Shown here: one piece after another, positions 24,731 to 50,198 of the stretch | Position numbering within the stretch: the first letter of the stretch is position 1 | Layout of the letters: each line of letters starts with the position of its first letter | Assembly: GCA_022402445.1 (NCBI GenBank) | Contig: JAKRSF010000009.1 | Location: forward strand, 62,001-126,000 | Source: Cyanobacteriota bacterium | GTDB lineage: Bacteria > Cyanobacteriota > Cyanobacteriia > CACIAM-69d | Reading direction: 5' to 3' | DNA length: 64,000 nucleotides | The notes under the pieces: model-generated | Databases searched by the model: none | The model's input: only the letters and a program-made list of their open reading frames with translations | What the model was told of the DNA's origin: nothing | Made by a program: the position numbers and the translations under genes

Positions 24731-24837
<107 letters not shown>

Positions 24838-25493: not shown

Positions 25494-26564
25494 CTACTCC
25501 TCAAACGCCCGCCGCAGATCGTGCATGGTCATCCACAGGCGGTAGATGCGCTCATGGACATAGAGGCTGTGCCCCAGCATTCGGGCGATCACGGCGCTGT
25601 CTTTTTTGCCCAGCCAGTAGATCGCATAGGCATGGCGTAGGTCGTAGGGAGCAAAGGGGCAACCGGCGCGGCGGAATGCGGTGGTGACCCGGTGGCCCAA
25701 GGCGGAATTGTTAGGGCCGCTGCAATCGGGGCGGACGATCGCGGCAAGTTCCCAGTCTTCAAACCACCGCAGGCTGCGGGGATAGGCGATCCGCAGTTTG
25801 CCGGTTTTGCTCTGGGCTGATATTTCGAGCCAGGGGGGATCGATCGCGCGGGCCAAAAACACTTCATGGGGCCGCAGACCGTAGGCGGCGATCGCACCGT
25901 AAACCCATCGCCATTCCGGTTCTTTGAACAGCCGCCGCGCGGCCTCAATTTCGGCGGCGCTGGGCAGGATTCGGGGCGCGGCCATGGCGGGACCGTAGCG
26001 GCCCTGGTATTGCCGCACATCCACCGGGCAGCGGGCAAAGTCTGCCAGGGCTTGAAATGCACGGGCCATGCGTTGCCGCGATCGCGTGTCCGGCTCCGTC
26101 AGCCGTAGCAGGGTTTGGGTCAGGATCTCGGGGGTGAGGGGTTCCGGTAGGGGCAATCGCTTCAGGGGCCGGTAGTAGTCAATTTCCCAGGTGGTGAGGG
26201 TTTTGGGGGTGCGGCGGCGACGGTTGAAGTAGAACTGCTCAAATTCGGCGATCCAGTCGGCGATCGCGCGCTTTTCTGCCCTTGTCCCCCAGTTTTCCCA
26301 CTGGAAGGAACCCCCCAGAATTTCCCGCGATAGGCGACGGGCCAAGCGTTCGGCGGCGCGGATCGCATCGACGGTGGCAGGAAACCCGAGGGCGATCGCG
26401 CGGGTTTTGCTCAGGCCGGCGGGCTCCCCTGGCTTGGGGGGGAGGGGTGCCGTGAGGCTGACAGCTCGAGTTTTGGCGCGCCAATCGACCTTGATCCGGG
26501 CGATCGCGCCATCACGTTTCAGGCGACCGTTGGCCGATCGCAGTTCAAGTTCTGGGTCTGGCAT
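25494..26564 (-). CDS. Tyrosine recombinase (element integrase)
   Basis: A 356-residue protein. The C-terminal catalytic domain shows the first Arg in YGLRPHEV, a Lys in the beta-hairpin (SKTGKLR), box II as YDLRHAYA (Tyr where His is more usual), MLGHS with the second His, and the nucleophile Tyr in ERIYRLW. The N-terminal part (TPKTLTTWEIDYYRPLKRL) fits an arm/core-binding SAM-like domain. It is adjacent to the tRNA-Phe attL and co-directional with the methyltransferase. It is expected to catalyse integration/excision at the 76-bp core. Confidence 0.93.
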   Translation of the reverse strand: MPDPELELRSANGRLKRDGAIARIKVDWRAKTRAVSLTAPLPPKPGEPAGLSKTRAIALGFPATVDAIRAAERLARRLSREILGGSFQWENWGTRAEKRAIADWIAEFEQFYFNRRRRTPKTLTTWEIDYYRPLKRLPLPEPLTPEILTQTLLRLTEPDTRSRQRMARAFQALADFARCPVDVRQYQGRYGPAMAAPRILPSAAEIEAARRLFKEPEWRWVYGAIAAYGLRPHEVFLARAIDPPWLEISAQSKTGKLRIAYPRSLRWFEDWELAAIVRPDCSGPNNSALGHRVTTAFRRAGCPFAPYDLRHAYAIYWLGKKDSAVIARMLGHSLYVHERIYRLWMTMHDLRRAFEE

Positions 26565-26589: not shown

Positions 26590-26672
26590 GGCGATCGCGA
26601 GTGATCGCGCGGTGATCGGAAGTGATCGCGAGTGATCGCACGGTGATCGGATGCGATCGCGAGTGATCGCCC
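26590..26672. repeat. Tandem 31-bp repeat with eight phased GATC sites
   Basis: Two full 31-bp units (26590-26620, 26621-26651) and a partial third (26652-26672) lie in the gap before the recombinase gene. Each unit holds three GATC sites within GTGATCGC- or GTGATCGG-type words. The eight GATC starts, 26593 to 26665, are spaced 10, 11, 10, 10, 11, 10 and 10 bp, close to one helical turn. It is a candidate control or arm-type binding array for the recombinase gene or a replication-linked site. Confidence 0.85.
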
Positions 26673-27616: not shown

Positions 27617-27977
27617 GATCAACATGATCAACAAAATCGCTGGATGGCTTACGGGGCGCGGCGTTGACCCTGTTGATCGTGCGATCAACATCGATCAACA
27701 CGATCAACATTGATCAACAAATCTGTGAAGAAATGGCTGAAACCTTTGCGGGGTAAGTGTTGCCGCTGATTTTGGCCGTGCCAACACTGGCGATGGGGGC
27801 GGGGCGGCAGCGCGAGACCCCAGAATCCCAGTAAGCCCCGCTACGCTTGCGTTTGCGGCGTTTCTGCTGGAGTCTGCGGGCGGTTGTTGATCATGTTGAT
27901 CGTTGTTGATCGCACGATCAACAGGGTCAACGGCTGACGGGGCGGGCGATTCGGGCAATGTGTTGATCATGTTGATC
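27617..27977. repeat. Iteron unit X: inverted pair of TGTTGATC arrays
   Basis: Thirteen exact copies of TGTTGATC/GATCAACA are present. Array b' starts at 27617, 27626, 27671 (inverted), 27683, 27693, 27702 and 27712. Array a' starts at 27885, 27894, 27904, 27916 (inverted), 27961 and 27970. Spacings are 9-45-12-10-9-10 and, mirrored, 9-10-12-45-9. Each array contains a 20-bp dyad. Degenerate half-sites (GTTGACCC, GGGTCAAC) also occur. Not CRISPR: spacers are 1-4 bp and there are no cas genes. Likely protein-binding iterons (inference). Confidence 0.92.
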
Positions 27978-27980
27978 ACT
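27828..27980 (-). pseudogene. Duplicated remnant of the primase 3' end
   Basis: Read on the minus strand, this stretch encodes INMINTLPESPAPSAVDPVD followed by RAINNDQHDQQ. It aligns with the C-terminus of the adjacent primase (IDMIDKTAETPATPDVNPVD, then RVIDNDRQDRQ). DNA similarity continues to the position of the primase stop, where TTACTGA has become TTACTGG. No start codon or upstream part of the gene is present. It marks a tandem duplication of about 415-425 bp that created iteron units X and Y. Confidence 0.8.
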
Positions 27981-28030
27981 TCTCCAGAGTCGGGGCAACA
28001 GGCGATGGTTTGTTGTTCTCTTAGGAAAAC

Positions 28031-28402
28031 GATCGACATGATCGACAAAATCGCTGTATCGCTTTCCGTGCTTGGGTTTGAGTGTGTCGATCGCATGATC
28101 GACAGTGATCGACATGATCGACAGCGATCGACAAAACAGGTGTGAAATAGCTAAAATGCTTACAGGCTAAGGGTTGTGGCGATCCAATAGCCAAGATTTC
28201 GGGGGCGGGGATTCGGGCGGTGTCGATCGCGTTTTGCGTGGGGCGATATCGTCAGTAAGACCCGCCCCGTCTACGTTTCGGGCGTTTCTCGCTGGATTTG
28301 TCGATCATTTGTCGATCCTGTCGATCGTTGTCGATCACGCGATCGACAGGGTTAACGTCAGGCGTGGCGGGCGTTTCGGCGGTTTTGTCGATCATGTCGA
28401 TC
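28031..28402. repeat. Iteron unit Y: inverted pair of TGTCGATC arrays
   Basis: Fourteen exact copies of TGTCGATC/GATCGACA form two arrays. Array b starts at 28031, 28040, 28085 (inverted), 28097, 28107, 28116 and 28126. Array a starts at 28299, 28310, 28319, 28329, 28341 (inverted), 28386 and 28395. A lone copy sits at 28221. Array b has exactly the spacing of b' in unit X; array a mirrors it. Array a lies inside the coding 3' end of the primase gene. All copies differ from unit X at the same base (C for T). Confidence 0.93.
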
Positions 28403-30972
28403 GCTTTGCTAGAAGAAATCGGAACCGACAGCACCCCATCGGCAAATGTGCAGCCAGGGATGGTGTTGCAGATGGCCTCGAATCGCTCCCGCACATGGGC
28501 AGCCTTGAGGTTTGAGCGCCGCAGGATGGACCGCTGGCATTCCCTCACGGTGATTTGCCCGCCCTTCGCTTCAGCAGCCTTATAGATTTTGAACAGTTGC
28601 CCCGTCAGGGGGTGGCCTTCGGTCTCTTCGCTGTAGGCTTGCACCAACAGAAATTGGCCACAGTAGAACTCGCTGAGGTTGGCGGCCCGTTCGGCGGTGT
28701 CGGTGCCGATCGCGGTGGGGAACTCGGTGGTGTTGTCCCCCAAGGCCCATTCAACGCAATGGAGCCACAGGGCCAGCCGGGGCATGTAGCTGCACTGTTT
28801 CCCCAGGAAGAACGCAAACGCGGGATTGGATTCTTGATACTTGAGGTATCCCCGCCGGTAGCGCTCCCACTGGCGACGCCAGATCGCCCCCGCCCCGGTG
28901 CTGAAGGTGAGGACGCAGTTGGGCACCCGTCGCAATTGGCGGTAGAGGTGATCGATGGAGCCGTAGATATCCACGGTCACGTCGGACCATTCGGCGAAAT
29001 TGTCCGGCAGGGATGGGCGCGCTGGCAGAAACCGCGACAGCAGCCCGTCCGGGTCATCTACCAGGGCGAAATGTTTGGCGGCCAATTTCGGCTGCAATCC
29101 CCCGGCGATGTTGAGGGTTTGGCCCTTGAGTCGTAGGGAGCCCGAGCGATCGCTGTATTCCTTCCTGATGGCTAGGGGTTTGTTCCATGCCGTCAAAAGC
29201 AACTGGCGGCTATTGCCCTTGCCGGAGCCTTTATATTGATCCAGCCCGGAAAATAGGCCCGCTAATTCGTCCTTAACCCAGCATGAGCCTGAGTTTGGGG
29301 GGTTGTCGGCTAAGCGCTTTAGGATGGCTTCCATTTCCCCCTCGTTCAGGACGTAGGTTCGGCGGTTGCCGATCATCTCCTCCCGGAAGACCTTGGGGTT
29401 GGCCGTGCTTTCAAAATTCTCGGCCTTCTCCTGGGGTTTCATGGCTTCCCAGGCTTGGGCGATCGCCTCCAGTTCCGCTTCACATTTCTCGATGCGGGCG
29501 TCTTCGGCGTCCTGCATGGCGTACAGGGGCGCAAAAATTGCATCTTGCGCCGCTGATTTGCCGCTGCTGGGGGGTGATACGTCGTTGGTCCAGAAGATTG
29601 GGCTCTCGATCCAATCGTCCTGGCTGGCGTGGCCTTTTTTGGCGATGACCTGGACCCGGCCGCCGAGGATGACGCCACAGGCGGGGAGTAGGTTTTGCAG
29701 CAGGCGGATCGGGTCGATGCGATCGCTCTGGGCTTTGGTGGTGAAGGCGCGGGCGAGGGCGTCGGGGAGGATGCCGTGGGGGTCGAAGGGTTTGCTGGCG
29801 CGATCAATGAGCGATCGCAACTCCAGGGAGTCCCGATCAAGGCGATCGCGCTCTTCCCGCTCCCGCTGGGTGGCTTCGATGAGGCGGCGGATGGATTGCT
29901 CGGTGCGATCGCTGGCGGCGGCGAGGCGGGGGATTTCCATCTCCATCTCGCTGTCGCTGGCGTCGAGGATGCGATCAATCTCCCGCCGCAAGTCCTCTAG
30001 GGATAGGGTGTCTGGGGAGGTTGTGGCGCTAGGGGTGGGGTCTGGGGTCCGGGGGGTGGTGTCGGGCCGCTGGGGTTCTAGGTTGCCCAGAATGTCGTCG
30101 GGTGTGGCTCCAGCGGCCAGCCAGTCGGCAATGTCGAGCCCCTTATCTCTGGGTAGGGATGCCTCGCTCCAGTCGAGGTCGGGCCATGGGTAGAGCCATT
30201 GGGCGTCGGGGTGATCGGCGGCGATCGCGCGGGCATATTTCAGGCCGTTTTTGTCCCGGTCGGGCACGATGACGATCCGGGCCCTGGCGAAATCCTGGCT
30301 GTAGTCGCCATAGCTGCCGTAGGCCCCGCCGCCGCCGATGGTGGTGGTGGCATGGAACCCCAGGGCAGCGAGGGCATCGGCACAGGGTTCGCCCTCGACC
30401 CAAAAGATCAGTTCACCGGCGGCGGCGGCTTTGGTGAGTTCGTGGTAGCGGAAGGGGGCGATCGCCTGTTTGAGGGGATCTTTGGTGGCGTCGTCCACCT
30501 GTCCGCCCTTGCGCCATGCGGTGTTGCCGATCCAATATTCTTGCCAGATGGTGCGCTTGCCGGTGCCGTCGTCAATGCGGCGGGTGCGGATCAGGGGGTT
30601 GCCCTGGCGATCGCTGTAGTGCCAGACGCGATCGCCCTTGGGCCGGATGGTTTTTTCGGTGGGGATGGGCCACCGGCTGGTGGCGGCGGGGGGCATGGGT
30701 GGGGCCGGTGGTCTGGGGGCCGGTCGGGGGCGGCGGCGCTTGGGTGGGCGATCGCCGTCGGGGGCGTTGGGATTCACCGGGGGGTTGATGGCATCGCGGA
30801 TGGCTTTTTTATGGGCCTCATCGTCGGGATAGTCCCAGCACTGCCATTTCCCGTCTTTGGTGCTGATCTTCAGGTTGCCGCCGTCGCACACGGGGCAATT
30901 GGCAACAATCTGGGTCCGGGTCTGTTTGGTGATCTCCAGATTGTCGAGGTGATCGAGGATGTTGAAGGTCAT
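28252..30972 (-). CDS. TOPRIM/DUF3987 primase-helicase
   Basis: A 906-residue protein. The N-terminal zinc-finger-like region has CPVCDGGNLKISTKDGKWQC. The TOPRIM domain is seen as ELIFWVEGEPCADALAALGF with PDRDKNG (E and DxD). The DUF3987 P-loop domain has FWTNDVSPPSSGKSAAQDA and a Walker B-like CWVKDELAGLFSGLDQY. The C-terminal 40 residues are encoded by iterons and rich in I/D/R/Q. Such proteins replicate phage satellites, plasmids and tycheposon-type elements. ATG 30972 forms ATGA with the upstream stop, indicating translational coupling. Confidence 0.88.
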   Translation of the reverse strand: MTFNILDHLDNLEITKQTRTQIVANCPVCDGGNLKISTKDGKWQCWDYPDDEAHKKAIRDAINPPVNPNAPDGDRPPKRRRPRPAPRPPAPPMPPAATSRWPIPTEKTIRPKGDRVWHYSDRQGNPLIRTRRIDDGTGKRTIWQEYWIGNTAWRKGGQVDDATKDPLKQAIAPFRYHELTKAAAAGELIFWVEGEPCADALAALGFHATTTIGGGGAYGSYGDYSQDFARARIVIVPDRDKNGLKYARAIAADHPDAQWLYPWPDLDWSEASLPRDKGLDIADWLAAGATPDDILGNLEPQRPDTTPRTPDPTPSATTSPDTLSLEDLRREIDRILDASDSEMEMEIPRLAAASDRTEQSIRRLIEATQREREERDRLDRDSLELRSLIDRASKPFDPHGILPDALARAFTTKAQSDRIDPIRLLQNLLPACGVILGGRVQVIAKKGHASQDDWIESPIFWTNDVSPPSSGKSAAQDAIFAPLYAMQDAEDARIEKCEAELEAIAQAWEAMKPQEKAENFESTANPKVFREEMIGNRRTYVLNEGEMEAILKRLADNPPNSGSCWVKDELAGLFSGLDQYKGSGKGNSRQLLLTAWNKPLAIRKEYSDRSGSLRLKGQTLNIAGGLQPKLAAKHFALVDDPDGLLSRFLPARPSLPDNFAEWSDVTVDIYGSIDHLYRQLRRVPNCVLTFSTGAGAIWRRQWERYRRGYLKYQESNPAFAFFLGKQCSYMPRLALWLHCVEWALGDNTTEFPTAIGTDTAERAANLSEFYCGQFLLVQAYSEETEGHPLTGQLFKIYKAAEAKGGQITVRECQRSILRRSNLKAAHVRERFEAICNTIPGCTFADGVLSVPISSSKAIDMIDKTAETPATPDVNPVDRVIDNDRQDRQMIDKSSEKRPKRRRGGSY

Positions 30973-31235
30973 TCCGGTGCCCCCCCATCCCAGTCGGTGT
31001 TTTCGCTGTGGCTGACGGGCGAAAGGTCGTGGACGACCAGGGAGGTGACCCACACGATCGCGCGGACGATGCCCTTGTGGTTGGTCTGGCTGCCCTGGTG
31101 TTCGATCGCGTACTTCACGGCGTCATGGGGGTGCCCTTCGCGGGGCCAGAGTCCGGCGGTGAGGGCGATCGCCATCCTCATGGATTCCATCTTGGTGAGG
31201 GTGACGATGATGGGGGTGGCGGGATGCAAATTCAT
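30969..31235 (-). CDS. Hypothetical element protein
   Basis: An 88-residue protein starting MNLHPATPIIVTLTKMESMRMAIALTAG. A short hydrophobic stretch (GIVRAIVWVTSLVVHDL) precedes an acidic tail ENTDWDGGAPE. No family is recognised. Its start and stop both form ATGA overlaps with neighbouring genes, strong evidence that it is translated in the primase operon. Confidence 0.7.
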   Translation of the reverse strand: MNLHPATPIIVTLTKMESMRMAIALTAGLWPREGHPHDAVKYAIEHQGSQTNHKGIVRAIVWVTSLVVHDLSPVSHSENTDWDGGAPE

Positions 31236-35110: not shown

Positions 35111-35473
35111 CTACTCCGTAGTTGATTCAGCATTGGGGACGGCATAGCCCATCGCCTCAAGCAGCCCCACCAGTCGCGCGGTTAATAATTCTGTGGCCGC
35201 GCGATCGCCTCCCGCCCGCACCATTTCCTGAATCGCCCCCACCAGCAGCAGCACCGCCCCCCGGTCCACCTCCGCCGGTTTGGTGCCGTCTTTTTCAGCA
35301 CCATCAATTACATTTCTTACCGCCTGATTCATTGCCGCCTTAGCCAGCGCATTAATTTGGTCGCTCAAACCACCGCCCGGACGGGATTCCAGCCACACTC
35401 GCACCTCATCATCGAGGTACACCGTAGCCCTAGAACGGTTCAGTTTCGGGCGGCCCCGCCCCCGGTTTGCCAT
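35111..35473 (-). CDS. Hypothetical DNA-binding-like protein with AT-hook-like start
   Basis: About 120 residues starting MANRGRGRPKLNRSRATVYLDDEVRVWLESR. RGRGRPK is AT-hook-like, and TVYLDDEVRVWLES-GGLSDQINALAK resembles a ribbon-helix-helix. An acidic/helical C-terminus follows. A plausible plasmid-type regulator. ATG 35473 is chosen because upstream codons lack a ribosome site and look non-coding. Confidence 0.6.
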   Translation of the reverse strand: MANRGRGRPKLNRSRATVYLDDEVRVWLESRPGGGLSDQINALAKAAMNQAVRNVIDGAEKDGTKPAEVDRGAVLLLVGAIQEMVRAGGDRAATELLTARLVGLLEAMGYAVPNAESTTE

Positions 35474-35575
35474 CGCTTTATCCAAAATTGACCCCAGAAA
35501 ACTAGCATATTCGACGCCATGAAGATAGATTCTGGCGTCATTTTCCACGAATCTAAGATTTATTGGCGTTGGGTA

Positions 35576-35605
35576 TTGACATTAGCTGACGTCTTAAAAT
35601 AATAT
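35576..35605 (+). promoter_or_regulatory. Promoter of the rightward operon
   Basis: TTGACA at 35576-35581, an 18-bp spacer, and TAATAT at 35600-35605 in the most AT-rich patch of the area. It is 60 bp upstream of the first gene (35665) and is followed by a TGATTCAC motif at 35643-35650 in the presumed leader. It probably drives the nine-gene rightward operon to 40471. Confidence 0.7.
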
Positions 35606-35664: not shown

Positions 35665-36108
35665 ATGCAAATTGCACTTAACGACGGACGGACGATCGAC
35701 ACCACCACGGCCACCAAGGCCGAACTGCTCGACGCCGCCAACGCCCTGGGCATGACCACCGCCTACCTTTGCCAATTTGGCGATCTGCGGTTCCGGGAGC
35801 CCTGGCAACGGGCGGTGGAATCGCTGGCCACCGAACGGGCCAACCAACCCGAGCTACAACCCAGCCCCATGGCCGACAGCCCCGACGCGATCGCCGCCTA
35901 TGAAGGATTTCGTCGGGCCACCTACAACGCCCTGCGGAAACACTTCGACGCCACCCGCGCCAGCGACTTCGCCACCGCCCTGGCCCGCCGCCAGTTCAAC
36001 ATGCCCCTGTCCGCCGCAGAACAGGAACTCATCACCCGCTATCGCGAGTGGTATGCCCGCAAGCAACTGGCAGGACGCGAACCAGAACGCGAACTAGCCA
36101 CCGCCTAG
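35665..36108 (+). CDS. Hypothetical element protein
   Basis: A 147-residue protein starting MQIALNDGRTIDTTTATKAELLDAANALGMTTAYLCQFGD. The N-terminal part looks like a small DNA-binding or SAP-like helical fold, and the C-terminus is helical and charged (ATALARRQFNMPLSAAEQELITRYREWYARKQ). First gene of the rightward operon. Its stop sits 1 bp before the first 11-bp repeat array. Confidence 0.62.
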   Translation: MQIALNDGRTIDTTTATKAELLDAANALGMTTAYLCQFGDLRFREPWQRAVESLATERANQPELQPSPMADSPDAIAAYEGFRRATYNALRKHFDATRASDFATALARRQFNMPLSAAEQELITRYREWYARKQLAGREPERELATA

Positions 36109-36109
36109 C

Positions 36110-36254
36110 GGTTCCTATCCGGTTCGTTTCGGGGTTCGCTTCAGGTTCTCATCCGGTTCCTATCAACCCCGAAACGCCCACACCGCCACTAATTCACCCG
36201 GTTCCAATCCGGTTCTCGTTTGGTTCCTATCCGGTTTCAATCCGGTTCTTATCA
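36110..36254. repeat. Two blocks of five 11-bp repeats abutting a start codon
   Basis: Consensus GGTTCCTATCC. Block 1 starts at 36110, 36121, 36133, 36144 and 36155 (spacing 11, 12, 11, 11). Block 2 starts at 36200, 36211, 36222, 36233 and 36244 (spacing exactly 11). A TAATTCAC motif (36190-36197) lies just before block 2. The last repeat ends on the A of the ATG of the next gene, so any protein bound to DNA or mRNA here would mask translation or transcription. Confidence 0.92.
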
Positions 36255-36790
36255 TGGCTGACTCCATTCACCAGACACACACCTACGGCGTGGCCCACGT
36301 CGCCACCGCCGCCGGGATCACCGCCACCGGGATCCGCAAAGTTCTCATCGATCGCATCAAACGCATCGCCCCCGACGCGATCGCCACTTTGGGCGAAAAC
36401 GGGCGCGGGGTGATCTACGGCTTCACCGCCGAAGCTCTGGAAATCGCCGAATCCTATCGCAACCGGGGCATCCTCACCCCGGACCAATGGGAGGCCCAAT
36501 ATATCCAGCCCGTACAGGCTGAGGTTTGCCCCGAAACCACCGGTTCCGCCCTGGCGGTTCTGCCAAAGTATTTCCGCGATCAGGCGGACGTAGCCCTTGA
36601 GGTGGCCCGCGATGCCATTTGGGACTACCAAAACTCCATCGATGAGGAATTTCAAGCCGAACTACAGGCCGCCTATACCCAGGGCGAGCGCGAAGGGGGG
36701 ATGCTCCTAAGCGCCAGAATCGCGGGCCGTCGGGCCGGTCTGGGAAAGCTGCAAGGCGATCGGGCGGCGGCTGCCCAGGGTGGCGCGTAA
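36254..36790 (+). CDS. Hypothetical element protein with HTH-like N-terminus
   Basis: A 178-residue protein. THTYGVAHVATAAGITATGIRKVLIDRIKRIAP is HTH-like (MerR/phage-antirepressor style). The rest is helical, with a coiled-coil-like segment YQNSIDEEFQAELQAAYTQGEREGG and a basic tail RIAGRRAGLGK. Its ATG is contiguous with ten 11-bp repeats, suggesting it may be an autoregulated DNA-binding protein (inference). Confidence 0.62.
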   Translation: MADSIHQTHTYGVAHVATAAGITATGIRKVLIDRIKRIAPDAIATLGENGRGVIYGFTAEALEIAESYRNRGILTPDQWEAQYIQPVQAEVCPETTGSALAVLPKYFRDQADVALEVARDAIWDYQNSIDEEFQAELQAAYTQGEREGGMLLSARIAGRRAGLGKLQGDRAAAAQGGA

Positions 36791-38522: not shown

Positions 38523-39236
38523 ATGACCTACACCACCAACGGCCACACCCCCGGCGCTGAGCAGCGCATCGCGATCGACCCCGCCACTGGCCTTGCTATG
38601 GGCTACGCTCCAGCAGAAAACAACGCCCCTTTGAACCTCCCGCCGCCGCCCAGCGAAGCAGCACCCCCGCCCCCTCCAGCACCCGCACCGGCTCCAGCGC
38701 CAGCACCCGCACCGGCTCCAGCGCCAGCACCCCCACCGGCCCCAGCACCAGCGCCCGCCGCATCCAAGCCCACCATCGGGCAACGGGTGGATAATTTCGC
38801 CAGCCGTCTCTCCAAGCCGAAACCGCCCCAGCCCGCCGCGATCGCCTCTACCAACACCGTTGAGGTGGAACTGGTGGGGCAGAAGGTGGAACGGCTCACC
38901 CGCGAGGTGGCGATCGAGGTGGACGCGACCTGGTGGGGGAACTGGGTTAACGAGCCCAGCGGTCGCATTGTGGCCGGTGCCCTGCTGGGGTGGGGATTAC
39001 GTCGGTGGATCCCCTGGCTTGCGGGGGCTGGCCTGTTCTCCGTGGCGTCCGGCGTCTCCCTTGGCGTGGCGATCATCATGCACGGCGATCGATTCGTGAG
39101 GCCCGCCACAGCCCAACGGGCAGGGGTGATCGTGATAATCGCCGCGATCGCCCTTCAAATCAGCCCGCCGCGCCCGAACTTCGCCATCCCCGAATGGCTC
39201 AACAATTTCCTGTATCCCCCAACCCAAGTCCGGTGA
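38523..39236 (+). CDS. Proline-rich membrane protein
   Basis: A 237-residue protein. Residues about 40-80 are an Ala-Pro repeat that would form an extended rod. A beta/coil segment (NTVEVELVGQKVERLTREVAIEVDATWWGNWVNEPSG) is followed by two or three TM helices (IVAGALLGWGLRRW, LAGAGLFSVASGVSLGVAIIM, AGVIVIIAAIALQI). An extended Pro-rich arm on a membrane base recalls TonB-like or phage-assembly proteins. It overlaps the ATPase gene by one base (TGATG). Confidence 0.7.
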   Translation: MTYTTNGHTPGAEQRIAIDPATGLAMGYAPAENNAPLNLPPPPSEAAPPPPPAPAPAPAPAPAPAPAPAPPPAPAPAPAASKPTIGQRVDNFASRLSKPKPPQPAAIASTNTVEVELVGQKVERLTREVAIEVDATWWGNWVNEPSGRIVAGALLGWGLRRWIPWLAGAGLFSVASGVSLGVAIIMHGDRFVRPATAQRAGVIVIIAAIALQISPPRPNFAIPEWLNNFLYPPTQVR

Positions 39237-40471
39237 TGAGCATCATTCAAATCCAAACCCAAGCCCATCAATGGGTGGGGGCGTGGCTATCGGCGGGCTT
39301 CACCCCGGATCGCATCCGCAAGGAAGCAGCGGCCCGAGAAATGCCAGAAGAGGCCCGCCGCGCGATCGCCGATGCCCTACTGGCCTACGCGGCGGATTGT
39401 GCGATCCGCCCCCAACATTCCCCGGAGGCGATCCGGGGGGCGCTGGCCCGGTTGGCAGCCGGTGGTCTCGATTTATCCGATCTGCGGCAATGGTGCCGCC
39501 AAAACCTTAACCGGGCCGATCTGGACGTGGCCGAAAGGCTGCTGAAAAACGAGGAATCCCGCCGCGCCGCCCTGCCCGCCGCCCGCCCTGACGCGATCGC
39601 CCCATGGTCCGTCCTGTTGCCCCAGGGCGATCGCTTCAAGCACGTCCTGATCTTGGGGTCCACCAACGGCGGCAAAACCTGCCTGACCGAATGGCTAGGG
39701 CACCAACAGCCCGGATTCGTGCGGGTGCTGACCACCAAGCGCAAGGCGACCCAGTGGAGGGGGATGGAGGTGATCGGCCACCCCCGCGATTACGCCGCCC
39801 TCAAGGTGGCATGGGAGGCGCTCATCTCCGAAATGGACCGCCGCCTAGGGTTGATCGACCACGCGGGTACGGCCTATCAGCACCTCAATGTGTTGGTGGA
39901 CGAATTGCCCGCTCAGGCGGCGAACCTGGGAAAAGATCATCAGCACTGGCTATCCACCCTGCTACGCGAGTCGCGAGAGTCCCTGATCCGGCTGTTCGTT
40001 TTGGTCCAGGGGGGGCAGTTGAAGACCATCGGGCTCGAAGGGGAAAGCGACCTTAAGGGATGCCTGCACTGGGTCCGATTGGGCAAATTCGCCCGCAGCC
40101 ATGCCCAAAAACTCTATCGCGATGGCCTGTGCGATCGCGCGGCCCTCGACTGGGTTTTACAGCAGCGCTACCCGGCCACGATTGACGACGCGATCGCGGA
40201 GGTGCCGGACCTCACCCACTGGCAACCGGGCACCGCGTCCCACACCTTCCCAAGCCCTTCCACTGCTGAAGCGTTCAGAAGCCACGGAAGCCCTGTGGTA
40301 GTAGGCGCTTCCACCATTTCGGTCCCTTCCCAGGAAGCCGACGTAGACCCGCAAAAGCTGCAAACGGTTCGGCTTTTGATGGGGTCGGGGGTCAGCAAAA
40401 CCCGCGCGATCGAGCAGGTGTTTGGCTGTTCTGGGGGCCGACAATTTCAGCGGATTTCGTCGCTGCTGTAG
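39236..40471 (+). CDS. P-loop ATPase (FtsK/HerA- or packaging-type)
   Basis: A 411-residue protein. An N-terminal helical region (about 1-130) precedes the ATPase core: FKHVLILGSTNGGKTCLTEWL (Walker A GSTNGGKT), HLNVLVDELP (Walker B) and RLFVLVQGGQLKTIGLEG (sensor-like). The C-terminus LQTVRLLMGSGVSKTRAIEQVFGCSG looks like a winged/HTH DNA-binding tail. It could pump DNA in virion packaging, conjugation or partition. Last gene of the membrane-protein operon, followed by a terminator. Confidence 0.75.
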   Translation: MSIIQIQTQAHQWVGAWLSAGFTPDRIRKEAAAREMPEEARRAIADALLAYAADCAIRPQHSPEAIRGALARLAAGGLDLSDLRQWCRQNLNRADLDVAERLLKNEESRRAALPAARPDAIAPWSVLLPQGDRFKHVLILGSTNGGKTCLTEWLGHQQPGFVRVLTTKRKATQWRGMEVIGHPRDYAALKVAWEALISEMDRRLGLIDHAGTAYQHLNVLVDELPAQAANLGKDHQHWLSTLLRESRESLIRLFVLVQGGQLKTIGLEGESDLKGCLHWVRLGKFARSHAQKLYRDGLCDRAALDWVLQQRYPATIDDAIAEVPDLTHWQPGTASHTFPSPSTAEAFRSHGSPVVVGASTISVPSQEADVDPQKLQTVRLLMGSGVSKTRAIEQVFGCSGGRQFQRISSLL

Positions 40472-40636: not shown

Positions 40637-41356
40637 CTAGACGTTCGGGATCATGTACTCGCAGTAAAGGGCCAATTGCCCCGCCGTCGCGCCATTCCCC
40701 GTGAAGCCGACAACCAACTCCGCCCCGGACGCCTCCATCACCTTGGGCGCAAGATCGATGATCGTGCCTGCGCTGTTGTCAATGCTCGCAAAGTTCACAT
40801 CAAGGAACTGGGTCAGGTTGCCCGTAATCCCCAGCGTCAGGCGCGGCGGGGTGCTGAATCCGGCGTATTGGGTTTTGATCGCCATCCGCAAGCGCCAGAT
40901 TTCAGCCTGCGGGGGCAGCGTGACCCAGGCATTATCGCCACTGGCAAACTGAACGATTTTCTTCTCGACTTTGACGGCCCCAGCGGCCAGCGTCGCCAGG
41001 GGGACAAAGCCAAGGTTTTCGCCTTGGGCCGTCAGTAGGCTCACGGTTTCAGCAGCGGGAGCAGTGGCGGGGAAGCGTAAGGCGTAAGATGCCATCATCG
41101 TGTCGCGTGACAGCAGCTTGACGCCGTAATCACTGCCCAACTGTCCGGCTTCGGGGCCACCTGCCAAAATCATGATTCCACCACCCATCTGGTTCGGGAG
41201 GGAATCCATTGCGTAAGCATGAACGGGGCCAGCGTAGATCCCGCCGCCATTAGCGATTTCGATCCCTCCACCTGCTCTGGTGAAAATAGTGGATTCTCCC
41301 GCAATGGAAAACTCTGGTTTGGTGGTGCCGTCGAGATCGGCGAAAAACTTGGACAT
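40637..41356 (-). CDS. Beta-rich hypothetical protein (possible structural protein)
   Basis: A 239-residue protein. Gly-rich start (ESTIFTRAGGGIEIANGGGIYAGPV), then alternating strand-forming segments (AVKVEKKIVQFASGDNAWVTLPP, EIWRLRMAIKTQYAGF, PRLTLGITGNLTQFLDVNFA) and an end GQLALYCEYMIPNV. No signal peptide or membrane span. The composition suits a capsid, spike or adhesin-like beta-sandwich, but no family is recognised. Last large gene of a leftward three-gene set. Confidence 0.62.
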   Translation of the reverse strand: MSKFFADLDGTTKPEFSIAGESTIFTRAGGGIEIANGGGIYAGPVHAYAMDSLPNQMGGGIMILAGGPEAGQLGSDYGVKLLSRDTMMASYALRFPATAPAAETVSLLTAQGENLGFVPLATLAAGAVKVEKKIVQFASGDNAWVTLPPQAEIWRLRMAIKTQYAGFSTPPRLTLGITGNLTQFLDVNFASIDNSAGTIIDLAPKVMEASGAELVVGFTGNGATAGQLALYCEYMIPNV

Positions 41357-41441
41357 GGATTAAAACCTTGTGCGAGGGGGTGGACTCGCTCCCCGCGATC
41401 GCGCTGAAAGTGTGGCGAGGCGATCACCCCTCCAGTCTAAA

Positions 41442-42308
41442 TCACTCCCATTGGATTTCCAGCAAGATCGCCCCATCCGGTGCGGCCATGGTCATCGTCG
41501 CGATCGCGGCCACATCCGCCGGGAACAGAGCCGGATCCAGGGGAATCGTCCCCGTACCCCCATCCGGATCTGTAGACCACGCCCCGCCAAACTCCCCAAA
41601 CCGGGCCGGATCCCCTTCTACCCCCAGCGTGATGCTCACCGGCACCTCAAAATACAGCCCCTCATTGACCTCAAGGCGAATCGAATAGGCCGCGCGGCCC
41701 CCAGGAATCACCCCGAGCGATCGCACCAACTCCGTCTCTTCCGTCTCATCTGCCGATTCTAGGAACACCGCCGCACTCCCAGGGCCGGGGGGAGGCACTG
41801 GCACCGGCACGGGTGACGGCGTGGGCGAAGGACCGGGCGTGGGCGAAGGACCGGGCACAGGTGATGGACCGGGCACAGGCGAAGGACCGGGCACAGGCGA
41901 TGGCCCCGGCACAGGAACCGCCCCCACCTCCGTGATCGCCGCCCCTTGCACCAGGATCGCCCCCGCCCCCTCACCGCTCCAGCGCAGCACCAGGCGATCG
42001 CCCGATTCCAGCCGCGCACTCGGGTGAAGCCCCACCGTCCCCCCCGCCGTCGCCGCCCACACCGGCATCGCCCCCACCAGCCGCTCAGTGCCATCCGGCG
42101 CGATCGCCCACACCTCCAGCCCCGCCGTATCCTCCCGCACCGACAGATAAATCTCCGAGACCAGCAGCGGCCCCGCCGCCACCAACACCTCAATCTCAAC
42201 CGGATCGCCCGTATCAAACGCCAGCGTCGCCAGATCCGATCGCCCGGACCCCACCGCCGCGCCCCCACGGCCCCCATTAATCAGCCGCACACCAGGGTAA
42301 ATCGTCAC
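41442..42308 (-). CDS. Two beta-rich domains joined by a GPSPVP-repeat hinge
   Basis: A 288-residue protein. Domain 1 (about 1-130) reads like a beta-sandwich (DPVEIEVLVAAGPLLVSEIYLSVRED). The hinge (about 133-180) repeats PGPSPV/PGPSPT and is encoded by imperfect 18-bp DNA repeats. Domain 2 is again beta-rich (AAYSIRLEVNEGLYFEVPVSITLG) and ends AAPDGAILLEIQWE. This resembles spike or fibre proteins with a polyproline rod. ATGA overlap with the upstream gene indicates coupling. Confidence 0.65.
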   Translation of the reverse strand: MTIYPGVRLINGGRGGAAVGSGRSDLATLAFDTGDPVEIEVLVAAGPLLVSEIYLSVREDTAGLEVWAIAPDGTERLVGAMPVWAATAGGTVGLHPSARLESGDRLVLRWSGEGAGAILVQGAAITEVGAVPVPGPSPVPGPSPVPGPSPVPGPSPTPGPSPTPSPVPVPVPPPGPGSAAVFLESADETEETELVRSLGVIPGGRAAYSIRLEVNEGLYFEVPVSITLGVEGDPARFGEFGGAWSTDPDGGTGTIPLDPALFPADVAAIATMTMAAPDGAILLEIQWE

Positions 42309-43078
42309 TTGCAGACCTCCCCATGGATGGTCACCGGCCCACCCGGCGCGATCGCCGTAATCGCCCCCAAATATTCCGGCCCAATTTCAAGCGTCCCCCC
42401 CGGAGCCAGCGGCAGCCCCAGCCCCGGAGACGCCAGCGGCCCCCGGTTGATCCAGCACACCACCTCCCCCTGATTCGCCAACAGCACCGATTGCCGTTCA
42501 GCATCCGCAGGCGCGATCGTCGTCCGAAATTCCCCCACCGTCCACGCCATAGGCGAACACTGTTTCAATGCCATCGGACGGGGTTGAGCTTCCTCGTGGA
42601 CCTCAGCCGTAATCAAAACCTTATCCTCAGCCCCAGGGAGCCCATACCCCACATCCGTCATTTTGGCCCCCAACTCCACCCCAAAACCCAGCCCATAGGC
42701 CACGTTATCCGACAAATATTTCAGCAAATCCACCGTGTAATAGGGGATCGATTCATGGTTTTGGATCGAGCAGGTTACGACTTCCTGCCAATCGCTACCC
42801 GGAACCCGCAACAGCAGATCCAAATGCGCCCGCGCAGATTTCCAAGAAATATCCCGCGCCAGCAAATATCGCGATTCCCTTGACGGAAAATCATCGCTTG
42901 GAGTAGGCGGAACAATCGCCGGTAGGCTACGGATTCGCACCCGTGCCGTTAGGCTTTTCACCAATCCGTAATAATGCGAAATCGGCAAATCCCACCCTTC
43001 ACCAGGGGTATAGACTAAAGTAGGAGAAGACCCTTGAATCCGCACCAATCGATTGCTAATTCGGCTGTAAGTTGTCAT
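42305..43078 (-). CDS. Beta-rich hypothetical protein (possible structural protein)
   Basis: A 257-residue protein. The C-terminal part (QSVLLANQGEVVCWINRGPL, LGLPLAPGGTLEIGPEYLGA, ITAIAPGGPVTIHGE) follows a pattern often seen in phage-encoded beta-sandwich proteins. The N-terminal half has YYGLVKSLTARVRIRSLP and LARDISWKSARAHLDLLLRV. No domain name can be given. Its ATG overlaps the divergent 43077 ATG in the palindrome CATG. Confidence 0.62.
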   Translation of the reverse strand: MTTYSRISNRLVRIQGSSPTLVYTPGEGWDLPISHYYGLVKSLTARVRIRSLPAIVPPTPSDDFPSRESRYLLARDISWKSARAHLDLLLRVPGSDWQEVVTCSIQNHESIPYYTVDLLKYLSDNVAYGLGFGVELGAKMTDVGYGLPGAEDKVLITAEVHEEAQPRPMALKQCSPMAWTVGEFRTTIAPADAERQSVLLANQGEVVCWINRGPLASPGLGLPLAPGGTLEIGPEYLGAITAIAPGGPVTIHGEVCK

Positions 43079-43283
43079 GCCCCTCGCATTACCTCCCCAA
43101 TCCCGTCCTGTAGTGCGTCCTTTGGATTTCTACCTTAATTTAGCGCCCCCTTCCATGCTTCGGCGCATGTTGCCCAGCGAAGTAGAAGTAGCTTGGAAGA
43201 AATTTGCAAAATCCCGCCGTCACCCCTTTTGGGATATCACCCTCCAGCGCCCCGCTGGCCCTTACGATCAGGGGGGTTCTTAG
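43077..43283 (+). CDS. Small basic hypothetical protein
   Basis: A 68-residue frame starting MPLALPPQSRPVVRPLDFYL and ending FWDITLQRPAGPYDQGGS. Its ATG shares bases with the leftward ATG at 43078 and no ribosome site is visible, so an internal start at 43155 (MLRRMLPSEVEVAWKKF) is a real alternative. The following gene begins at the next base after its stop, supporting translational coupling. Confidence 0.5.
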   Translation: MPLALPPQSRPVVRPLDFYLNLAPPSMLRRMLPSEVEVAWKKFAKSRRHPFWDITLQRPAGPYDQGGS

Positions 43284-45320
43284 GTGGGAGTCCCTGAGTG
43301 GTTCGCAGGTATTTCTGAGGGTGCATCGGCCCTACAGGCGGCGCTTTCCGATCCCGATCAAGCGCTGACCTTTGTCAAAGACGCCGTAGATATGGCGGAC
43401 TTGATCCTACCTGGGGATGGCCTAACTGTTCCCATCGGCCCCTTCGAGATTGAAATTGAATCAGTTGAGGGCGAAAAGGACTGGCTAGAGCCCAATTCCC
43501 CCGGTAGCAACTGGTATTCCGATAGAACCGGCGACCCCCCAAGCCCCTTCGACTGTGAACGGTGGCCCAACTCGCCATTCTGTCAGAGCGTCCTAGATAC
43601 CGTTAAGGAGGGATGGTTTGGGATTGGCGTTTCAATCTCGATTTCCGAGAACGAAATTTGCATCAATCCCACATTCACTATCGCGTTTTTCACAATGCCG
43701 ATGGGGAATTTTTGCTATCGGCGGACCCCAGAAGAGGAACCGGAGCCCGAACCCCCAACGTTTAACGATCAAGACGGCCCTCTCTGTACGGGGTGCTTAC
43801 CGCCAACCAGGAAACCGGCCCTCTGGGGTTTATATGATTACAGTCGATCCTACTGGGTTGTCGAGTCTGTCCCAGTGTTTGATCGAATGACCAATACTTG
43901 CAGCATGACCCCCCCTCAGCAACAGGGGATAGATCACGTTGGCAGTGGAACCTTTGGCGGCGTGTGCCCCCCTGCTAGGAGCTTGCCGCTGCGTAGGATT
44001 ATTCAAGGGGATTTTGATTTAAAAGATCCTGAAAACCAAGTCCGCTACCAATACTGGGTTAACGATTTTCCGTTCCGCAGATTCTCAAATTGCACCGCCA
44101 TTGTCTTTAGTAAATTCCAAAATGTCGTAAGAGACCCTGAACGTAAGTATGGCGTTCGCGTCATTGACACCAGGACATCATCGGGTGGCCACGATCAAAT
44201 CGACTCCTACACGCAATATTTCTGGAAAGCATCGGACGATCTAGCGGATCGGGTCGCGGCCATTCGGGTAAATTCTGAGTATTCAACTAGGCTAAGGCCA
44301 ATCCCGCGAGAAATTACCGGCACCTACTGGAATGGCTTTAGAAATGTTCCCTATAATTGCGGAACCTCTAACAAATATTGGACTGATGTTGTTAAACGAG
44401 TTGTGGCCCCTGCTGTCGTCGAGACGGGTGATCGCCGCCGCCCAGAACCCCCGCCCTTAGACCGGAGACCTGAAGATATGGGATGTTGTCCAGAAACCCA
44501 AGACCAATTGCAGTGGTTGGTCAAAAAGTTGGGCTTAAATCGCCTGCCTGTGGCGGCGACGGAATCTATTACTGCGGATGAAGAAAAAACGATCCGACTG
44601 GATAGTTTGGTGGAGTTGGTTCACCACGGCGCTAAGTCTACCCTGGAGGTGCTGGGGGAATGGCCGGTCAAGATCGAGATTCGCACGGATGAGGGGGAGG
44701 AATCAGGTGAAATCAAGCTCCCCAACGTGGCGGAAACCCTCGCGGAACTGTTTGGTCTGGAGTTTGGCACGTCGCGCGATTCTGATGCTGCCTATGCCGC
44801 CGCGATCGCGGGCTTAGGCGTCTCCAGTTCAATCCTGTCCACCCTGATCTCAACCCTGGACCGTGTTGAAGCCCTCAGCGAGTTTGTGGGAGGGCGCGTC
44901 AAAGCAGTTACCCGCGAATATGAATTGCCGTTTGATCCATTCGCGGACCCTGGCACTACTTCCCAAGAGAAGCTGTTTACCCGAACCTTGGTCAAGACTG
45001 AAGGCTGGGAAAACGATGACAAGCTGGTTTTAGCCACCCTTGTTTCAGAGATCAGGGAACAAATCAAACTTTTAGAAGCGGTGTTTGTAGAGCGAGGCCA
45101 TCCAGAACAGTTGATGGGGCGTCTTCAAAAACTTGCAGATTTAGCCAAAGGGGTCGTTTCCGCATCGGAAATGCCAGAAGAAGACAAGAGTTGGCGGCAA
45201 ACGGTCACTGAATTGGAGACACAGGTTAACACTTACCTTGAAGCTAATGGAATGCAAAAGGTTAAGCTCAACATCAAAGGACAAATGACCGACACGCCGA
45301 AAGAGGATCCCAAGCCATGA
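43284..45320 (+). CDS. Large hypothetical element protein
   Basis: A 678-residue protein from GTG 43284. Features in order: helical start FAGISEGASALQAALSDPDQ, a beta-region (GDGLTVPIGPFEIEIESVEG), a Cys-containing part with acidic-Pro linker EEEPEPEPP and CTGCLPP, a Tyr/Arg-rich middle, and a helical C-terminal third (VSSSILSTLISTLDRVEALSEFVGG, IREQIKLLEAVFVERGH). GC content is visibly lower than in flanking genes and HIP1 sites are nearly absent. No family recognised. Overlaps the next ATG (ATGA). Confidence 0.65.
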   Translation: MGVPEWFAGISEGASALQAALSDPDQALTFVKDAVDMADLILPGDGLTVPIGPFEIEIESVEGEKDWLEPNSPGSNWYSDRTGDPPSPFDCERWPNSPFCQSVLDTVKEGWFGIGVSISISENEICINPTFTIAFFTMPMGNFCYRRTPEEEPEPEPPTFNDQDGPLCTGCLPPTRKPALWGLYDYSRSYWVVESVPVFDRMTNTCSMTPPQQQGIDHVGSGTFGGVCPPARSLPLRRIIQGDFDLKDPENQVRYQYWVNDFPFRRFSNCTAIVFSKFQNVVRDPERKYGVRVIDTRTSSGGHDQIDSYTQYFWKASDDLADRVAAIRVNSEYSTRLRPIPREITGTYWNGFRNVPYNCGTSNKYWTDVVKRVVAPAVVETGDRRRPEPPPLDRRPEDMGCCPETQDQLQWLVKKLGLNRLPVAATESITADEEKTIRLDSLVELVHHGAKSTLEVLGEWPVKIEIRTDEGEESGEIKLPNVAETLAELFGLEFGTSRDSDAAYAAAIAGLGVSSSILSTLISTLDRVEALSEFVGGRVKAVTREYELPFDPFADPGTTSQEKLFTRTLVKTEGWENDDKLVLATLVSEIREQIKLLEAVFVERGHPEQLMGRLQKLADLAKGVVSASEMPEEDKSWRQTVTELETQVNTYLEANGMQKVKLNIKGQMTDTPKEDPKP

Positions 45321-46876
45321 GTTTAACTTTGGTCAAGTCGGCTTTGGCTTCCAGAACCATTCGCAAGGCTTTGGGCGGAGAAAAGGAAAAAAGCGGCATT
45401 AGGTTGATTGATCTGCGGTCTCAGATCAAAGTTAAGGAAGGGGACGAAGAAAAGAACGTCATACAAAAAATATGGAATTTTTTCAGCGGTGCCGGTGGCT
45501 GGTTAATGGGAGCCCTCAAGGGGCTTGTTAGCCCAATCGCCTCTTCCCTCGGGGGGCTTTGGAGTATGGCAACCCAAGGTGTTTATCAGTTGTTCTTCTT
45601 CGATTGGAATGTATCAGATGAACAAATTGATAAGCAAATTAAAGCGGCATGGGAAGCAGCGGCGGGTGCCCTAGGCGAGGCGGTTGGCTATGCTTTGGGT
45701 GGGGGGCTCAACATTGGGGCGAGCACCCTGATTCCCAAAATTGGGCCATCTGTTGCAGCTTATGCCTTGGGAGAATTTACAGAAGAGGCTTGGGCGGAAT
45801 TTAAGGGGGCCTTTAAGACAATCATGAATACAGCGGCCCGAACGGCGGGGTTGCTGGCCTTTAAAGGGGCACGCTTTTCTATCAAGGCCATTGGTGAACA
45901 GTTGCCATTGCCAGAAAGTTGGAAAAAGAGTCTTCGATCATGGGGGGATGGCAAAAAGCCATTTATTGTCTACAAGGCTGTTGAAGAATGGATTGAAAGC
46001 AATTTTGATGGGATGCTCGAAAAGTTTTTGGTGGGCAAATGGGAGGGTTTTTTTGAAGGCTGGATGGAGACGGGGATGATCGTCGCGGGGGCCATTGATG
46101 CCACCTTGGCGGCGATGAAGGCCCAGAAAGATCAGGGCGGCACACCCCGGACCCTCGAAATTGACCTGTATCCCAAGGAAGACAAGGCCGGATCGGAAGG
46201 CTCGGGCGATAAGGATGATAAAGGCGGCAAGCCTGAGCAGGGCAAGGTTCTGCTGAATGCGCCCCAGCCGCTGCTGAAGCAAATGGTCTACTCCACCTTG
46301 GCGCAGCATCAGATATTGGGCGATCGCAGCGTTGGCCTACTGGTGGGCCAGCCCGCCGAGGAGTTTGTGGCGGCGCGGCTGCTGACCCGGCAATTGACCC
46401 TTGTATTCCGGCGCGGGGCCAGCAAGCCGCCCTGGAAAGACGGCACCAAAACCGCCGGAACCACCACCGTCACCATCCCCAACCCCAAGGTGGGCCTGAG
46501 TTGGAACAACATCAAATCCGCTTGCAGCAAGTGGACATGGGGCGAGTTTGAGGCGTCCTGCTTGCTCAGTTCGGGGCGGATCCTGAAGGTGCGCGGATCG
46601 TCGCCAGACGAAGCCAGGGATAAGGCGAAACAGCTATTGGCGCTGTCTTCGGACGAATACCACGCCATCAATGTCACCCAGGAAATGGAGCGCCACCCCG
46701 AACTCAAAAAGCGGCCCCAGATCGCCTATCCCGCGCGGGGGACGCTGTTGGTGCGGCGGGCCAGCACCACATTGGAAGGGCGCACGGACCTGAAGGGCAA
46801 CCGCTGGACTGAAACGCCCGTGCATTTTGACCTGTGGCCCGACAGCGAGCCGCCTGGGCTCGAACCGTTCCCCTAA
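45317..46876 (+). CDS. Large hypothetical protein with hydrophobic segments
   Basis: A 519-residue protein. The N-terminal half has several Gly/Ala-rich hydrophobic helices (FFSGAGGWLMGALKGLVSPI, AAGALGEAVGYALGGGLNIG, MNTAARTAGLLAFKGA), suggesting membrane interaction. A charged Lys/Gly/Asp linker (KEDKAGSEGSGDKDDKGG) leads to a C-terminal domain, PAEEFVAARLLTRQLTLVFRRG and onward. Coupled to the preceding gene. Could be a membrane-penetration or tape-like protein of a particle, but that is speculation. Confidence 0.65.
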   Translation: MSLTLVKSALASRTIRKALGGEKEKSGIRLIDLRSQIKVKEGDEEKNVIQKIWNFFSGAGGWLMGALKGLVSPIASSLGGLWSMATQGVYQLFFFDWNVSDEQIDKQIKAAWEAAAGALGEAVGYALGGGLNIGASTLIPKIGPSVAAYALGEFTEEAWAEFKGAFKTIMNTAARTAGLLAFKGARFSIKAIGEQLPLPESWKKSLRSWGDGKKPFIVYKAVEEWIESNFDGMLEKFLVGKWEGFFEGWMETGMIVAGAIDATLAAMKAQKDQGGTPRTLEIDLYPKEDKAGSEGSGDKDDKGGKPEQGKVLLNAPQPLLKQMVYSTLAQHQILGDRSVGLLVGQPAEEFVAARLLTRQLTLVFRRGASKPPWKDGTKTAGTTTVTIPNPKVGLSWNNIKSACSKWTWGEFEASCLLSSGRILKVRGSSPDEARDKAKQLLALSSDEYHAINVTQEMERHPELKKRPQIAYPARGTLLVRRASTTLEGRTDLKGNRWTETPVHFDLWPDSEPPGLEPFP

Positions 46877-46889
46877 CCCCTAGATCGCC

Positions 46890-47090
46890 ATGGACCTCAA
46901 GCTGTTTCCCCGTTTATCCACGCGCAGCCGCCGCGCGATCCAGCGGACGAAGAAGCGCGGCGGCGATCCGTATGTTTATCGGCCACGCGGCACCTTGATG
47001 GCTCGGTTGGCGCAAGAAACGGGCATGTCGGTGACCGAGGTGTATCGCCAACTTTTGAGGGAGCGCGAGGTGCTGATACGGGGCCGTTGA
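46890..47090 (+). CDS. Small very basic DNA-binding-like protein
   Basis: A 66-residue protein with an Arg/Lys-rich start (LSTRSRRAIQRTKKRGGDPY) and a helix-turn-helix-like end LMARLAQETGMSVTEVYRQLLREREVLIRGR. It could bind DNA as a regulator or condense DNA. It lies 13 bp after the preceding gene. Confidence 0.62.
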   Translation: MDLKLFPRLSTRSRRAIQRTKKRGGDPYVYRPRGTLMARLAQETGMSVTEVYRQLLREREVLIRGR

Positions 47091-47109
47091 AATTTTTTTT
47101 GGGGGCACC

Positions 47110-47143
47110 GTGCTAAGGATCGCTTAAAGGATATTCTTAGCAC
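47110..47143. terminator. Hairpin after the 46890 gene
   Basis: GTGCTAAG (47110-47117) and CTTAGCAC (47136-47143) form a perfect 8-bp stem with an 18-base loop in the 144-bp gap before the 47235 gene. There is no following T-run, so attenuation or a binding site is as likely as termination. Confidence 0.45.
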
Positions 47144-47167
47144 ATACGCCCAACGACGCAGCCAGAC

Positions 47168-47230
47168 CCCTTGCCATACAAGGGATTGGGGCGCTATTGA
47201 TTGGTTAGTACAGAAAACAAACCAATCCCT
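47168..47230 (+). promoter_or_regulatory. Mutually exclusive hairpins before the 47235 gene
   Basis: CCCTTG (47168-47173) pairs with CAAGGG (47179-47184). AGGGATTGG (47181-47189) alternatively pairs with CCAATCCCT (47222-47230), which includes the expected ribosome-site region. The two stems share bases and cannot both form, an attenuator-like layout. The gene has no other obvious Shine-Dalgarno sequence. Confidence 0.5.
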
Positions 47231-47234
47231 CCCC

Positions 47235-50122: not shown

Positions 50123-50198
50123 CTGAAAATCCTCGTGTCGGCGGTTCAAGTCCGCCTCCTGGCATTCTCTAAAACCCATATCCCGCAAGGGTTTGAGC
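50123..50198. repeat. attR: 76-bp attachment core
   Basis: Identical to 24762-24837. It carries only the anticodon-loop-to-3' part of tRNA-Phe, without the first 31 nt, so it is not a second tRNA. It marks the right end of the element; beyond it the two flanks share only scattered bases. Confidence 0.95.

Follow-up and report, generated by a model that had tools for sequence, protein, structure and literature searches.

The pairing of a DNA motor with a cognate repeat array is already known from the FtsK-KOPS and TraB-clt systems. FtsK is a hexameric dsDNA motor whose gamma domain, a terminal HTH, recognises the short KOPS motifs that guide loading, and these motifs are dispersed over the chromosome. 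In Streptomyces, the FtsK-like dsDNA pump TraB reads short repeats at the clt locus with its C-terminal HTH (PMC3583192, PMC4170104, PMC5365140). The TRS of clt are 8-bp repeats (PMC4170104), and the clt of pWTY27 overlaps the 3' end of a tra gene, with 16 bp within traA plus 159 bp (PMC3583192). Two other arrays are of similar layout: the parC of R1 consists of ten direct repeats flanking a promoter (PMC9426499, PMC5016525), and the stbDRs of R388 form two sets, each with five 9-bp repeats and 2-bp spacers (PMC3098194).

Here we compare these systems with a repeat array found in the window, i.e. the whole stretch of 64,000 nucleotides of cyanobacterial DNA that was analysed. The locus resembles the TraB-clt elements (AICEs included) in as much as it encodes an FtsK-type motor with a C-terminal HTH, that of TraB reading plasmid-specific direct repeats of 5-9 bp, and in as much as the element carries an integrase and a replication protein, with no recognised relaxase among its ORFs scanned. 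In 26/67 representatives of the family short repeats adjoin the motor gene, as they can in TraB-clt, whereas the window array lies 3 kb upstream. Unlike TraB-clt, the system has a cyanobacterial host and its transfer is putative; moreover, the HTH is modelled as three helices without a clear wing. In contrast to the dispersed KOPS, the window copies form phased clusters and belong to a mobile element. The two sets of five 11-bp direct repeats (block 1 with one 12-bp step) are reminiscent of R1 parC/ParR, and their 11-bp period and position before an operon are reminiscent of R388 stbDRs/StbA. Unlike R1, the window has no ParM-like gene in the scanned ORFs and, in a simple sigma-70 scan, no promoter-like site between the blocks. 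Unlike in R388, no StbA-like protein was found by family search (Pfam, PHROGs and NCBIfam), and the product of gene 36254 is an orphan.

The repeat array and its element

The array consists of ten GGTTC-type copies, all on the + strand and arranged in two blocks of five. Its parts are as follows:

36110..36165, + strand: block 1, five GGTTC-type repeats starting at 36110, 36121, 36133, 36144 and 36155
36166..36199, no strand: 34-bp spacer between the blocks, in which no sigma-70-like site was found
36200..36254, + strand: block 2, five repeats starting at 36200, 36211, 36222, 36233 and 36244
36125-36136 and 36165-36176, no strand: perfect 12-bp inverted repeat CGTTTCGGGGTT / AACCCCGAAACG, overlapping block 1

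The steps between copies are 11, 12, 11 and 11 bp in block 1 and 11, 11, 11 and 11 bp in block 2, and the block-to-block distance is 45 bp start-to-start. An earlier note on this DNA had described ten 11-bp repeats in two phased blocks; the ten copies and their division into five and five stand, but block 1 contains the one 12-bp step. The exact 11-bp period that the note gave for block 2, and its end on the A of ATG 36254, are confirmed by the start positions, the last copy being 36244-36254. The consensus GGTTCCTATCC was said to occur five times per block; there are indeed five copies in each, but only those at 36110 and 36222 match it exactly. Over the ten copies, G1, G2, T3, T4 and T9 are present in all ten and C5 and C10 in nine each, while positions 6-8 and 11 are variable, so that the repeat is best described as GGTTC-NNN-T-C.

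Exact GGTTC occurs nine times within the 145 bp of the array, as compared with shuffle maxima for the best 5-mer per 145 bp of 7 (300 shuffles of a 4.4-kb region) and 5 (ten 64-kb shuffles). Over the whole window, 24 matches to the 11-mer with up to two mismatches were found against 16.9 expected, which is unremarkable; the significance of the array rests on clustering and phase, not on this count. A scan of the host genome with a two-unit pattern (2 mismatches) returned the array and three scattered weaker matches. An exact 16-mer of the array gave four single matches in viral contigs, two of which have a moderate density of GGTTC/GAACC per 200 bp (7 in L230 and 5 in L232). The inverted repeat encloses a 28-bp loop, and the ssDNA fold of 36125-36176 has a z of -3.66. 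The core also resembles a tRNA T arm (GGTTCAAGTCC, att core), yet mimicry of the T arm was rejected, as GGTTCRANNC is matched by 0/10 repeats.

The array sits inside an integrative element of ~25.4 kb in tRNA-Phe that is bounded by perfect 76-bp att repeats. The features of the element that matter here, apart from its motor, are the following:

24762..24837, + strand: attL, 76-bp perfect repeat overlapping tRNA-Phe(GAA) 24731-24803
25494..26564, - strand: integrase of the element (phrog_1, E 9e-9)
28252..31053, - strand: primase/helicase (DUF3987, by family search), with its own, different arrays at 27617-28401
35111..35548, - strand: divergent 145-aa ORF, ribbon-helix-helix-like by eye only
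35665..36108, + strand: orphan ORF of 147 aa just upstream of the array, with a sigma-70-like site at 35576-35603 in front
36254..36790, + strand: orphan ORF of 178 aa that starts on the last repeat, second gene of a presumed operon
38523..39236, + strand: ORF adjoining the motor gene on its upstream side, with two membrane segments predicted
50123..50198, + strand: attR, 76-bp repeat identical to attL, which gives the element length

The order on the + strand is gene 35665, the array, gene 36254, small ORFs, the 38523 ORF and the motor ATPase. A simple sigma-70 scan found a single site near the array, that in front of gene 35665, so the array probably lies within one transcription unit. The several arrays at 27617-28401 lie around the primase gene's 3' end and the gene that follows it; they are built of ATCGAC/GATCAA words, ~three copies per block, 9-12 bp apart. 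Similar blocks are found 4-11 kb upstream of the motor in six other loci (L080, L096, L099, L101, L103 and L131), and these arrays are possibly origin iterons. Directly upstream of the integrase gene there are eight GATCG words in 10/11-bp steps (26593-26669), the core of which overlaps the HIP1 word, common in cyanobacteria. At the other end of the element, 40637-48886 is a block of ORFs without family matches (seven were scanned in PHROGs), and ORFs 43284 and 45317 have apparent counterparts, found by eye, in the locus L035, which suggests a shared module.

Gene 36254 has no homologue in other genomes (386 genomes, in which only the window's own was found) and none in viral contigs, phages or plasmids, where a match at E 0.02 proved to be an unrelated TolC protein of a plasmid. 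Its product has no match of worth in Pfam, PHROGs or NCBIfam (one PHROG of unknown function, E 0.06), gave nothing convincing in a PDB sequence search, and is not similar to the HTH-like protein that is encoded at a similar place in L035. Its predicted structure is likewise uninformative (mean pLDDT 44), and with neither a family match nor a usable model, the HTH-like N-terminus that the earlier note had ascribed to it was not confirmed. For the product of 35111-35548 no family match above the cut-off was found.

The motor and its relatives

The motor gene lies 3 kb downstream of the array:

39236..40471, + strand: FtsK/TcpA-like DNA translocase with motor domain, disordered linker and C-terminal HTH; start codon inferred
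40349..40465, + strand: three-helix HTH at the C-terminal end of the translocase (residues 375-413 of the model)

An AlphaFold model based on 16 sequences (mean pLDDT 75.5) contains a P-loop domain, a disordered linker at 338-371 and the HTH, which is predicted with a pLDDT of about 90. The best structural match of the motor domain is TcpA of pCW3, the conjugation coupling protein of Clostridium perfringens (Z 16.9, rmsd 2.9, 198 aligned), followed by FtsK (Z 14.8; E 7e-5 with Foldseek). The likeness to TcpA is not complete, as only the motor domain (model 120-343) aligns and the HTH lies outside the match. Judged by its model, the protein is a translocase of FtsK/TcpA-like fold, i.e. with an FtsK/HerA-type motor domain. 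Unlike TraB, it has no match to an FtsK family above the Pfam cut-off, and a profile of its HTH found nothing convincing in a PDB sequence search. A hydrophobic segment precedes Walker A in 43/69 family representatives but not in the window protein, where the two predicted membrane segments are carried by the adjoining ORF upstream.

Homologues of the motor were found in 15/386 genomes by single-sequence search and in 57/388 by profile search at E<=1e-12, the window's own genome being included in both counts; the A2 profile at E<=1e-3 reaches 240/386 genomes, mostly with P-loop-only matches, and was not taken as a count. The other members of the family are found in cyanobacterial genomes and plasmids, and the named homologues are on plasmids, including pDU1.

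For the comparison of the motor genes, 102 loci were dereplicated to 69 representatives (shared 4-mers > 0.35; proteins <250 aa were dropped), 67 of which were testable. The test takes the top 6-mer on both strands in the last 650 bp of the gene and 350 bp downstream, and compares it to shuffles. A motif cluster was found at p<=0.01 at the 3' end of 26/67 motor genes from cyanobacterial plasmids and elements, as against 9/144 comparison ORFs (>=300 aa) of the same loci and 15/131 ORFs of control chromosomal regions. The background is thus not negligible, yet the motor genes rise above it. Of the nine positive comparison ORFs, several look, by eye, like replication genes (primase or DnaB) with arrays of their own. 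HIP1-type words were left out of the test, which hides any true GATCGA-type motif; with these words kept, the numbers are 29/67 for motor genes and 22/144 for controls.

The top word exceeded that of synonymous-codon shuffles (p<=0.01) in 14/29 motor genes of the window's HTH type and in 8/40 others, and the in-gene copies are spread over 3-6 strand/frame classes. The motifs of the strand/frame test were chosen beforehand, which makes its p values too small, and the top-word synonymous shuffle is the fair version; L082, which dereplication had removed, was put back for both tests, and L183, a near-copy of L185, was excluded from the combined strand/frame value. In 6/26 significant loci most of the cluster lies after the stop codon, with two copies at most inside the gene. 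The excess over synonymous shuffles, the use of several strands and frames and the copies after the stop codon point to selection on the DNA rather than on the protein. The coding of EP dipeptides as the sole cause of the in-gene clusters is ruled out by the synonymous shuffles and by the several frames and strands. Note that a narrower synonymous test, restricted to GAACC/GGTTC, is weaker (p 0.016 in L035, 0.0995 in L082, 0.017 in L105 and 0.82 in the window gene).

The earlier note had proposed that related elements be searched for repeats of other sequence with the same period, and such repeats do occur: the clusters have different motifs, and the commonest spacing between same-strand neighbours is 9-12 bp, with the mode at 11 as in the window array. 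A strict scan for chains of 9-13-bp steps found arrays in 9/47 element loci and in 0/20 controls, the controls being chromosomal rather than mobile DNA and chains with all steps multiples of three being filtered out. A looser spaced-seed scan was useless as a discriminator, since it reported clusters in 20/20 control and 43/47 element loci. Words resembling TTGTCTATA are clustered around a small ORF of pDU1 (L128, 5862-6350), a plasmid with an ATPase of this motor family.

Pairing of the motif with the HTH

The HTH type of the window was defined by an HMM iterated to convergence. Its nine seed sequences come from members whose motor genes all lack a significant 3'-end cluster (p 0.16 or more in every case). 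The HMM gathers 39 loci, and the window is one of these (E 9e-13). GTTC or GAAC is contained in 6/11 significant motifs of this HTH type and in 0/15 of the others (Fisher p 0.002). The similarity of the HTHs is correlated with that of the motifs (Spearman 0.30, 0/2000 permutations as high; unchanged without L183), although common descent could explain this correlation. When the type's 38 other members are compared with the window, the closest HTH is that of L035, the motif of which is GGAACC, the complement of GGTTCC. Four plasmids encode proteins that match one family member only at the HTH (tblastn), and in all of them GGTTC/GAACC is found just before the HTH, in 6, 5, 3 and 5 copies against 0.44, 0.36, 0.32 and 0.44 expected. 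These plasmids seem to be two related pairs, common descent of linker and HTH can contribute to the matches, and the clusters are significant only with the word named beforehand (otherwise p 0.085 to 0.515). On these sequence comparisons, the motif follows the HTH type in the motor family.

The motor gene of the window has no cluster at its own 3' end (p 0.76), and within the element GGTTC is clustered nowhere but in the array at 36110-36254. Several observations count against linking this array to the motor. In 15/29 members of the HTH type there is no significant in-gene cluster, and these include the window and pDU1, whose HTH is the second-nearest. Motifs unlike GGTTC (ACTTAC, GGTAAA) also occur within the type, no comparably relocated array was found among the loci examined of its other members, and the ten window copies are on one strand whereas many family clusters are mixed. 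In addition, L043 carries AAGTCGGTGAT units in 11/22-bp steps (11812-11970) immediately before an ORF of its motor operon, together with another motif, TCTACA, at the 3' end of its motor gene, which means that upstream arrays can belong to another protein.

Proteins that may read the array

We propose, as the best-supported interpretation, that the array is a clt-like recognition and loading site of the element's own FtsK/TcpA-like translocase, relocated from the motor gene, and judging from the sequence patterns we give this proposal an even chance or very slightly better. The array is read as the site of the motor on account of the HTH type of the window, the clusterless end of its motor gene, the different arrays of the primase and the uniqueness of the GGTTC cluster in the element, and it would most likely be the docking site of the motor because similar clusters travel with the HTH of the motor in the relatives. 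The C-terminal HTH, placed on a flexible linker behind the motor, would read the GGTTC core, and the spacing of about one helical turn would allow several motor subunits to dock on one face of the DNA, where the ring would assemble. In the relatives the cognate array lies either within the 3' region of the motor gene or directly behind it. In the window element it would have shifted upstream by ~3 kb, to a place between genes one and two of what is presumed to be the same operon, and a protein bound there would also obstruct the start of gene 36254, giving feedback on the operon. By analogy to Streptomyces TraB and clt, the array may mark the DNA of the element for pumping after excision. This pumping would probably serve cell-to-cell transfer and, less likely, segregation or packaging. 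The binding of the array by the translocase, its relocation, the feedback and the role in transfer are all steps that we infer.

The main rival to this motor-bound array is a centromere that is at the same time the operator of a partition or stability module, as in ParR-parC of R1 or StbA-stbDRs of R388: the product of 36254, of 35665 or of the divergent ORF 35111-35548 would bind and wrap the repeats, repress its own operon and stabilise the excised element. The layout of two sets of five with an 11-bp period is shared with both plasmids, the array adjoins a start codon, and ParM/StbA-like proteins are encoded upstream of the motor operon in L130 and L131, where they are annotated, and in L032, by sequence appearance only. 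On the other hand, no ParM-, ParA- or tubulin-like gene was found among the ten ORFs scanned around the array (seven from 35665 to the motor), the sole promoter-like site, upstream of 35665, is neither between nor beside the blocks, and for 36254 neither relatives nor a recognised DNA-binding domain were found. Furthermore, in other elements the GGTTC motif goes together with the HTH of the translocase, and the motor's motif is not clustered upstream of the parM-like gene in L130 and L131. Given the shared layout, the ParM-like genes of the relatives, the array of L043 and the half of the HTH type without clusters, we keep the centromere or operator as an alternative that is unlikely but deserves attention. 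The earlier note had favoured an autoregulated operator or a nucleation site such as a partition centromere, read by the product of 36254 or 35665. Its general idea of a site for protein nucleation is supported by the phasing near the helical turn and by the 9-12-bp clusters of related elements, but the suggested readers are not supported, as 36254 is without relatives and the GGTTC motif is tied to the HTH of the motor.

The remaining alternatives appear less probable still. The array might serve the 36254 operon simply as an autoregulatory operator and play no part in DNA movement. As its final repeat runs into the start codon, expression of 36254 would be blocked by whatever protein is bound, but ten sites over 145 bp far exceed a usual operator, and the motif recurs inside the motor genes of other elements rather than before 36254-like genes, which makes this a poor candidate. 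We consider it very improbable that the array is a neutral short tandem repeat that no protein binds. Cyanobacterial chromosomes do contain many heptamer and other tandem repeats, and some control ORFs were positive in our cluster test, but G1, G2, T3, T4 and T9 are kept in every copy while positions 6-8 vary, the separated blocks share this core, and the strict chain scan came up empty in the control regions. Marginally less probable again are iterons of a replication origin. Phased short direct repeats, such as those of the array, are typical of iterons, but the array does not adjoin a replication gene: the primase/helicase is ~5 kb away and has its own arrays at its 3' end, and a second array class similar to these is found upstream of the motor in the relatives.

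A wider and more doubtful idea may be put forward, namely that cyanobacterial plasmids and integrative elements without a recognised relaxase, the relatives of pDU1 included, use a TraB-like dsDNA pump with an exchangeable C-terminal HTH that co-evolves with an array in the pump gene. This would be conjugation or spreading of dsDNA outside Actinobacteria, and the window array would have moved to the operon leader, with a second role there as a feedback operator. In the open-licence literature, as judged from titles and the beginnings of abstracts, we found no paper that deals with repeats within or next to these ATPase genes of cyanobacteria; the cyanobacterial family, the in-gene array in several frames, the pairing of HTH and motif and the relocated array were not found in that literature either.

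When short phased arrays turn up in mobile elements, the usual guess is an operator or a centromere. The comparison within the motor family gives a testable code instead: the HTH at the tip of the motor predicts the motif of the array, and the array is often inside the motor gene, in several frames. If true, this would account for what is read by the orphan ATPases of pDU1 and other cyanobacterial plasmids, it would hint at how such plasmids without a recognised relaxase move, and tools for plasmid transfer in cyanobacteria might be developed from it.
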